Positions 1,000 to 23,330 of a stretch of 32,315 nucleotides of DNA are shown one piece after another (position 1 is the stretch's first letter; each line of letters opens with the position of its first letter). This DNA is from Bacteroidales bacterium (GTDB lineage: Bacteria; Bacteroidota; Bacteroidia; Bacteroidales; Bacteroidaceae), in NCBI GenBank assembly GCA_012729225.1, contig JAAYDO010000066.1:1-32315 (forward strand), read 5' to 3'. The position numbers were made by a program, and so were the translations under genes. Below the pieces are notes generated by a model. The model saw nothing but the letters and a program-made list of their open reading frames with translations, did not search any database and had not been told where the DNA came from.

Positions 1000-1172
1000 G
1001 TGTTGCGGAGAAAAAGTGCTGATGGGTCTCCTCTCATTGTGTGAGAAAAATAGTTGGTGGGCTCTCCTTGTGAATTGGTGGTGTTTGATGTGGGTTCAAC
1101 AGAATTTACCATGCCCCGTCTCAATCATTAGGAGAAGTGAATAGAAGTATGCGTGCACAGGGAAGAAACAGT

Positions 1173-1313
1173 GGGATTTTCCTGCCATTTGACACCTCGC
1201 ATACTCGAATCATTCTTCACGCTCCAACGAACAATTGTTCAAGTGCCCATGAACAATGCTTCAAGTGCCAACGAACAATTGTTCGATGACTCATGAACCA
1301 TGCGTGCGTTTTT
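1173..1313 (+). repeat. 22-bp-period palindromic repeat array, copy 1
   Basis: Near-palindromic 12-bp cores begin at 1207 (GAATCATTCTTC), 1229 (GAACAATTGTTC), 1251 (GAACAATGCTTC) and 1273 (GAACAATTGTTC), exactly 22 bp apart. The next position in register, 1295, carries the cap GAACCATGCGTGCGTTTT. Linkers are 10 bp and related (AAGTGCCCAT, AAGTGCCAAC, GATGACTCAT). A left cap around TGCCATTTGACAC (1183-1195) is shared with copy 2. It lies between a terminator and the 3' end of the AraC gene. Confidence 0.9.
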
Positions 1314-1449
1314 GACCGCATGGGCATTGGATTGCCGAATAAACATAAAGAATTGTTTGTGAATAAGATATGAGGCATTCTTAGGGTAGGGGTGCTCTCC
1401 TTTATTCTCTTGGATGATTCGTGTTCTGTCAGTAATATGTTGGTAGGAG

Positions 1450-3950: not shown

Positions 3951-4007
3951 ATATAACGTGGGTGCGGTGATTTTGAAATAGCGAAAATCACCGCACCCAC
4001 GTTATAT
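3951..4007. terminator. 24-bp perfect hairpin between convergent genes
   Basis: Arms 3951-3974 and 3984-4007 are perfectly complementary over 24 bp around a 9-nt loop (GAAATAGCG). It lies between the 3' ends of the plus-strand kinase and the minus-strand lipoprotein gene, so it can terminate both. TTTT sits at the inner end of the stem rather than as a long tail, and an AT-rich run follows on the right. Confidence 0.65.
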
Positions 4008-10164: not shown

Positions 10165-10446
10165 CCTCTGTTTCTTCTCTTTTCTTATATTTTTGCATTA
10201 TTTTTTAACGAAAGTGACGGTCTTTTTCTTCAAGAATTTCTTCCTGGTCACTATGGTGCTCTTCATCCTTTCCTTTTCGTGTCAAGAAATAAGAGTTTTG
10301 AACTCGATACGGATATTTTCCAGGTTGGAACAAGGTTGAAACAAGCAGAGAAAACCATTGGAAAGTTGATTTGAGGAATTTATTGAACCAAAATTAGTGG
10401 CTGAGGAGAGTGGAGGACAACCGAGGGGGCAAGAATGAAGAAAGTA

Positions 10447-10608
10447 GGGGATTCCATGCCATTTGGCACATCAAATGACTGAGGCATTCTTCGTGTTCCA
10501 ACGCACAATTGTTCAACGGCAAATGAACAATTGTTCAACGGCCAACGCACAATGCTTCAAGTGCCCATGAACCATTGTTCAATACCCTATGAACCATGCG
10601 TGCGTTTT
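10447..10608 (+). repeat. 22-bp-period palindromic repeat array, copy 2
   Basis: Cores start at 10481 (GAGGCATTCTTC), 10503 (GCACAATTGTTC), 10525 (GAACAATTGTTC), 10547 (GCACAATGCTTC) and 10569 (GAACCATTGTTC), each 22 bp from the next. The cap GAACCATGCGTGCGTTTT follows in register at 10591. It has one more unit than copy 1. The left cap TGCCATTTGGCAC (10457-10469) sits at the same offset as in copy 1. The linker AAGTGCCCAT is identical to one in copy 1. Confidence 0.9.
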
Positions 10609-10905
10609 CCCCTTCATGAATATTCGGTTCTTTGAGATGTGTAAATCGTTGTGTATCAAATGAGTATATTTATTTTGAGTGCATAGTGCTCTGCTTGACA
10701 ATCAGAAATAGTGTTTGTGGCAAGAATGCGGATGAGGGCATTGTGAAAGTACTAAACAAAGTGCTACGAAAATTCAATTGATTTCTCCACAAACGAGCCG
10801 CAACAGTGCCACATCATTACTATGAAATTTGTATGAGAATGAAGCAAGCACCCCCAGGCGACCTCGCTTCTCTGTTAAAATAGTGCTAAAAAAAAGTTTT
10901 CTTAT

Positions 10906-23135: not shown

Positions 23136-23140
23136 TCGTA

Positions 23141-23160
23141 TAAAGAAGATATCTTCTTTA
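23141..23160. repeat. 20-bp perfect palindrome
   Basis: TAAAGAAGATATCTTCTTTA reads the same on both strands. It begins 5 bp after the terminator stem. It may be a second hairpin, an operator or a chance structure. Confidence 0.7.
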
Positions 23161-23207
23161 TATACAATGGCTTATAGACCGAAGGGGAGTCAATGCTTGT
23201 GAGGGAA

Positions 23208-23313
23208 AAAACGCATGCGTGGTTCAATGGCTGATGAACAATGCTTCAAGTGCCAATGAAGCATTGTTCATCAGTCATCGAGGCATTGTTCGTTTGCCGA
23301 TGAAACATTGTTC
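23208..23313 (-). repeat. 22-bp-period palindromic repeat array, copy 3 (inverted)
   Basis: Read on the minus strand, cores lie at 23302-23313 (GAACAATGTTTC), 23280-23291 (GAACAATGCCTC), 23258-23269 (GAACAATGCTTC) and 23236-23247 (GAAGCATTGTTC), each 22 bp apart. The cap GAACCACGCATGCGTTTT follows in register at 23225-23208. The left cap present in copies 1 and 2 is missing. It sits between two convergent operons. Confidence 0.9.
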
Positions 23314-23330
23314 GTTGAAGTGTCTTATAT

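Follow-up and report, generated by a model that had tools for sequence, protein, structure and literature searches.

An IS982-ended MITE carries an ordered, constrained array of 22-bp repeats in a Bacteroidales genome

Described systems and the arrays of the window

BrickBuilt, an intergenic MITE of Porphyromonas gingivalis, consists of a leader, a minisatellite of 23-nt units (1 to 22.8 copies) and a tail; it has small inverted ends, is without a transposase and occurs in 19 copies in one strain, and both conserved and non-conserved sites are reported for its unit (in the sections of PMC4596501 used here). The element described below is likewise a MITE with an internal minisatellite, and the two are likened by architecture, not by unit sequence. 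BrickBuilt ends are of the GAGACCTTTGCA type, unlike the present ends, which differ from those in Table 2 of that paper, and the step here is 22 bp whereas the BrickBuilt unit is 23 nt; thus, the present element falls outside BrickBuilt. The same sections contain no comparison of decay between unit and arms, and no core shared across species. The left end of MITE239, also of P. gingivalis, begins ACGTGAGTTCGAT, as the present ends do (Table 2 of PMC4596501), and no 22-bp array is described for it in the parts of the paper drawn on. ISPg3 is placed under IS5 in these parts, whereas the transposase found with the present ends in a congener belongs to IS982 by NCBIfam.

MITECca01 of Cardinium, which is derived from IS982, is lineage-specific and has 169 copies (PMC9769881, in part), resembles the present element as a lineage-specific IS982 MITE and is shorter, with a length of about 240 bp; neither "tandem" nor "minisatellite" appears as a word in that paper. 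REP/BIME sequences are high-copy extragenic palindromic repeats (PMC3733652, in part), and the present arrays share these traits and the 3' location with them. The arrays differ in being carried by a MITE and in lacking the GTAG/CGTC tag, a tetranucleotide missing from both the unit and the cap consensus. A tagged REP was rejected on this basis, in agreement with the original prediction that these are not simple REPs.

The window, the whole stretch of 32,315 nucleotides analysed here, is contig C81 of a 2.89-Mb draft genome (213 contigs, 88.8% complete), and its encoded proteins, which include a TonB-dependent receptor and a DUF4625 protein, point to Bacteroidota. Three arrays with an exact 22-bp step, reported in the original prediction, were all recovered at their positions. 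The feature is larger than first described, as the element extends beyond each of the arrays. The left cap that it noted in copies 1 and 2 is indeed shared, but belongs to a longer left arm. The features are:

about 1088..1422, + strand: MITE copy 1, with left end, left arm, array and near tail (positions 2-335 of the 505 of the element HMM)
1207..1312, + strand: array 1, with a lead unit (1207-1228), three 22-bp units (starting at 1229, 1251 and 1273) and the cap GAACCATGCGTGCGTTTT (1295-1312)
about 10371..10679, + strand: MITE copy 2, with left arm, array and near tail (element HMM positions 10-296)
10481..10608, + strand: array 2, with a lead unit (10481-10502), four units (starting at 10503, 10525, 10547 and 10569) and the cap (10591-10608)
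about 23140..23319, - strand: MITE copy 3, truncated, with array and near tail, without left arm or lead (element HMM positions 136-293)
23208..23313, - strand: array 3, with four units (23313-23226) and a variant cap (23225-23208), without a lead unit; one inverted unit gives a hairpin of ~58 bases

The right end of MITE copy 1 has no match to the element HMM. A CRISPR array was ruled out, as the prediction had it, given the shortness of the 10-bp linkers and their recurrence, both inside one array and from one array to another. Elsewhere in the window, a perfect 24-bp inverted repeat with a 9-base loop lies between convergent genes (3951-4007) and looks like a bidirectional terminator.

An IS982-ended element dispersed through the genome

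The cap GAACCATGCGTGCG, allowing up to two mismatches, was found at 113 places in the genome (55 + 58), compared with 9 (4 + 5) for the reversed pattern, and the arrays are therefore not due to chance. This search also bears on whether the three arrays of the window are isolated, which they are not. Among the matches listed, 92 cap places were read (a few with two mismatches were left out), and all parse as arrays except L087 and L089. Common to the parsed arrays are a lead unit, GAAGCATTCTTCATGCTCCAAC, then 1-5 more 22-bp units (mode 3, counted between loosely matched lead and cap), then the cap. Likeness among units is 0.667 within an array, 0.693 between arrays and 0.751 for the same position across arrays. 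Units in the same position are thus more alike than array-mates, which indicates that an ordered array was inherited from a founder. The expansion or contraction previously suggested is in keeping with the varying unit number, but is only part of the story given the inherited unit order.

The array is the middle of a putatively non-coding element of ~505 bp (consensus 504-505 positions) that has inverted ends (AACGTGAGTTCGATGAA and TTCGTCGAACTCACGTT), a left arm of ~100 bp and, beyond the array, a tail of ~280 bp. A model of the left arm matched at least 140 places with E no higher than 0.01, and E is below 1e-5 for 126 of them (150 of 1169 candidates scored); a model of the tail matched at least 80 (150 of 1459 candidates scored). 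Forty-six left-arm places beyond the cap-fetched set were retrieved; many end in GAACAATGGTGCGTTTT and not in the cap, and some are interrupted by contig ends or deletions. Profile chaining of the fetched loci traced 133 copies or part copies, with both ends present in 23, the left only in 37 and the right only in 12. Most of the two-ended copies (21 of 23) are 481-541 bp long, and the other two are 327 and 332 bp. Twenty copies lie in 415 kb, three of them in the window; with the window excluded, 383 kb contain 17 copies, a density equivalent to about 130 in the whole genome.

The inverted ends, AACGTGAGTTCGANGAA, recur on an insertion sequence of the IS982 family in the congener G006 (locus L266), where they flank a 1041-bp element that codes for a 311-aa transposase. 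This protein is assigned to the IS982 family by NCBIfam (E 7e-77) and has a DDE domain; its gene, at 936 bp, is longer than the present element. With at most one mismatch, the end pattern occurs in 40 of the 45 genomes available for the genus (reversed control, 0-4 per genome), and at least 10 matches in 16 of the 45, own genome included, compared with at most 4 in the control. The 22-bp array is absent from seven other short elements with the same ends that were read in congeners. The signal of target-site duplication is weak: among the 23 two-ended copies, duplications of at least 4 bp were identified in 4 (shuffle mean 1.8) and of at least 5 bp in 3 (0.64).

In this genome (G000), at least 15 end matches are separated from the end of their contig by about 105-127 bp, as collapsed high-copy elements in an assembly would produce (C23, C28, C55, C74, C108, C132 and C156 are examples of such contigs). 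Four loci (L140, L142, L147 and L151) have the same inverted end and different interiors, and are probably other elements with IS982-type ends.

The site between dprA and an msbA-like gene spans ~660 bp here, including a 482-bp copy, and the aligned gene parts are 9-138 bp apart in 21 congeners (distances taken by hand). In two further congeners the gap is 279 and 416 bp, and the dprA match stops early there. Informative for this comparison were 23 of 44 congeners, the pair being split, inverted, incomplete or elsewhere in 21. No remnant of the element was identified at this site in the 29 congener loci fetched. Judged from these alignments, the insertion is missing in the 23 congeners. Identity to the nearest congeners in the msbA-like gene is 79%; strong divergence among the copies, together with their not being seen in other genomes, can thus be explained by an old burst on a long branch. 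Spread by plasmids or phages was rejected, as one full-length copy had no match in plasmid and phage searches and the single viral-contig match covers the cap alone.

Thus, the element is an IS982-ended MITE carrying an ordered, phased and constrained array. The prediction had named two alternatives, arrays that bind a protein and a mobile element without coding function. The mobile one is supported by the IS982-shared ends, the dispersed copies and the single site at which relatives have a shorter gap. The protein-binding one has indirect support only, from position-specific constraint and from like motifs at a like step in other species.

Constraint, placement and like arrays in relatives

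The new point here is that arm and tail have decayed, whereas the array has changed much more slowly. Measured against the consensus in 47 copies with both arms and tail, the left arm has 28.8% mismatches and the two tail parts have 33.7% and 28.0%, but the array has 12.9% and the cap 4.6%; pairwise differences for the left arm, two tail parts, array and cap are 0.42, 0.46, 0.41, 0.21 and 0.085. The 14 of these copies that were found by non-cap searches give 14.5% for the array, 27.8% for the left arm and 10.1% for the cap. In the 45 of 62 copies with exactly three ungapped units, a set in which the alignment is unable to choose favourable units, the units differ by 13.5% compared with 30.4% for the left arm (ratio 0.45, 0.39-0.50). 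Columns conserved in at least 95% of 62 copies make up 43 of the 106 in array and cap and 12 of the 363 elsewhere. Small well-kept islands occur in the decayed tail, at element consensus positions of about 260-282 and 410-440.

Within the unit, positions G1, A3, C4, A6, T7, T10 and C12 are 91-100% kept (97-100% averaged over three units). On the same averages, positions 2 and 5 are at 91-92%, positions 8, 9 and 11 at only 73-78%, and the linkers at 64-94%. The 46 left-arm copies, some of them cut, supply 87 units, and in these the seven positions are at 86-97%, position 5 at 89% and the rest at 43-84%. The half-site GAACAAT is nearly fixed and the other half of the 12-mer is variable. In arm and tail, the mismatch rate is similar whichever base the consensus has (0.29-0.32), so base-specific mutation does not explain the unit pattern. 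The original prediction described the 12-bp cores as near-palindromic, but the dyad is not maintained: in 336 units of 88 arrays, matching falls below all 500 shuffles, and perfect palindromes under selection are ruled out. A LexA-type box, GAACN4GTTC, was considered for the units and seems a poor fit, as its second half is not preserved in them and there are many loci.

Of 106 copies with both neighbours called, 54 are in convergent, 46 in co-directional and 6 in divergent gaps (neighbours are from a simple ORF caller, ignoring frames of at least 90 aa that overlap the element in 41 of 133 copies, two of them above 400 aa). In five contigs, for which the ORF caller differed slightly, convergent gaps account for 23% of element-free gap bases and divergent gaps for 20%, and relative to these the convergent excess has a binomial p of 2e-10 and the divergent deficit one of 7e-5. 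The 20 copies in those five contigs comprise 10 convergent, 7 co-directional and 3 divergent. Orientation within co-directional gaps is 30 versus 16 (p 0.054). This placement fits promoter avoidance, and possibly a role at gene ends. A replication-oriented motif was rejected, as GC skew of the flanks on the element strand is positive in 55 and negative in 62 of 117 copies.

A pattern of two cores, GAACAATNNTNC, separated by 7-13 bp was matched 239 times in this genome and 25 times in six of 44 congeners (G008, G014, G015, G031, G034 and G044), counts in which palindromic cores score on both strands. In the six congeners the step is 21 bp and the linkers differ. The pattern was not found in the other 38, and the reversed control gave 0 in all 45 genomes. 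Ten arrays of G044 are stand-alone, sharing no flank similarity beyond about 40 bp outside the array. When 399 genomes of the family were scanned with a looser GAAYAATNNTNC-type pattern, 21 had a match, and 14 of the 21, representing five genera, had two or more (reversed control, one match in each of 4 of the 399), and nearly all steps are 21 or 22 bp among the matches listed. Units from genera g15 and g6 conform to the pattern yet resemble different palindromes, and the likeness is loose; by motif, the GAAYAATNNTNC type is matched in five genera, closely in three and loosely in two. Of 34 looser-pattern loci, 25 are outside called reading frames and 9 overlap them. A convergent bias was not found in relatives, where the 29 loci with both neighbours include 5 convergent, 9 divergent and 15 co-directional gaps; the bias in the present genome may therefore only reflect promoter avoidance.

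Of the cap matches elsewhere, the three in congeners and three of those in the family were read and none are arrays, and the element profile run over 20 loci (L120-L139) found short stretches at the cap only (best E 1e-5). No description of GAAYAATNNTNC arrays or of the present family was recognised in the literature covered, which is mostly outside subscription journals. Within this scope the family does look new, as first proposed, there being no Rfam family in the window, no plasmid or phage match to one full-length copy and no array at the three cap matches of congeners.

Readings of the array and a survey of minisatellites

We propose, with a probability of roughly 0.55, that the arrays are the core of the ~505-bp IS982-ended MITE and that the array was later kept by selection as binding sites for a host protein. 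The best reading of the motif evidence is a phased protein-binding platform spread by the MITE, with a putative protein. An IS982 transposase would have spread the non-autonomous element in this lineage, after which selection would keep the array since a sequence-specific host protein binds the GAACAATNNTNC sites. The 21-22 bp step corresponds to two turns, so bound sites would lie on one helix face and several copies of the protein could line up. REP/BIME repeats have a 3' location, and for those of E. coli a topological or transcriptional boundary role has been suggested. By analogy, the bound array, mostly 3' intergenic and half of it convergent, might act in a boundary or in supercoiling, which is the least certain step.

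The array could instead be a passenger of a purely selfish MITE, or serve transposition itself as transposase or host-factor sites, with no host role. In this genome the arrays do sit inside a MITE whose ends are of IS982 type, and BrickBuilt provides a precedent for minisatellites inside MITEs (PMC4596501, in part). However, the ends, which transposition requires, are less well kept (major-base fractions of 0.73 and 0.81, with ends missing in 37-48% of rows) than the array (0.87) or the cap (0.95), making selection for transposition less likely, and the stand-alone arrays of G044 have a like core without shared flanks. We consider this explanation unlikely. Very improbable, in our judgement, is concerted evolution, in which conversion keeps the arrays alike without selection on sites. 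Distances between copies in the array track those in arm and tail poorly (r 0.12-0.16, compared with 0.31-0.51 among arm and tail), a pattern that conversion between arrays could also produce and that counts against the binding-platform reading. Conversion predicts evenly similar units, but fixed positions alternate with variable ones, sharing an array does not make units more alike, and a like core occurs in other species with different linkers.

A transcribed array might also form hairpins at mRNA 3' ends and act in stability or termination. The 3' location of the copies fits such an RNA element, as does the richness in inverted repeats of other arrays of the bacterial family, and array 3, with its inverted unit and long hairpin, has a fold much more stable than those of its shuffles (z about -6), an advantage that is slight in the other two arrays (z -1.2 to -2.7). 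Against it, RNAalifold predicts 5 pairs in 45 aligned copies, none changed on both sides, neighbouring units have no covariation above shuffles (the second helix scored was mistakenly set on linker columns), and the dyad is not maintained. We regard this as distinctly unlikely. A known structured RNA was rejected, as no Rfam family matched in the window and no covarying pairs were found.

If the arrays are docking sites, as in the protein-binding reading, a transposable element has given the chromosome more than 100 uniform platforms for a protein to bind, at an average of about one every 20 kb. This would be a bacterial case of regulatory domestication and a directly testable one, and the like core and two-turn step in relatives offer ready bait for the protein.

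Tandem Repeats Finder was applied to 40 stretches from relatives (L423-L442 and L445-L464; 797 kb). Many stretches were chosen near unrelated matches and some come from array-carrying genomes; some are orthologous, and thus the 32 intergenic arrays found in the 20-24 bp range are not all independent. These arrays, all of 21-24 bp, occur in 18 of the 40 stretches, and 8 more are in called genes. Intergenic arrays of 12-19 bp number 19, and there were none of 25-42 bp. A small control, 100 kb of E. coli K-12, yielded no array. Units of the 32 arrays are rich in inverted repeats (mean stem 4.69 versus 3.58 shuffled, z 6.6; at least 5 bp in 15 of 32), and the intergenic 12-19 bp arrays have no such excess (z 0.9). 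Fourteen arrays in called genes have a stem excess too (z 3.8, 3 of 14), so it is not confined to intergenic arrays. An even-centred dyad score gave no excess in the survey arrays (4.34 versus 4.16).

It is possible, though we consider it doubtful, that there is a family-wide, undescribed class of phased arrays, intergenic inverted-repeat sites 21-24 bp apart with species-specific sequence and conserved architecture, that serve a dedicated DNA-binding system, of nucleoid or boundary type, as docking platforms, and that the MITE captured one here and multiplied it to ~130 loci. Should the wider survey hold up, these bacteria would have a general, unexplained tendency to keep their intergenic minisatellites in phase with the helix. 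Tandem repeats of 41, 23 and 22 nt are mentioned for P. gingivalis W83 (in the sections of PMC4596501 used). A 22-bp array in another genome (G401, L380, about 1400-1750) has units that seem to hold inverted symmetry despite sequence change (GGGAATCGAATTCCC, GGCAATCGAATTGCC), which suggests double changes. The present genome has a second family of 22-bp arrays, at L244:15327-15386 (G000 C34:55327-55386) and L256:1243-1297 (G000 C44:61243-61297), in which the core is an unrelated 12-bp palindrome of the AACCATATGGTT type and the linkers are 10 bp.
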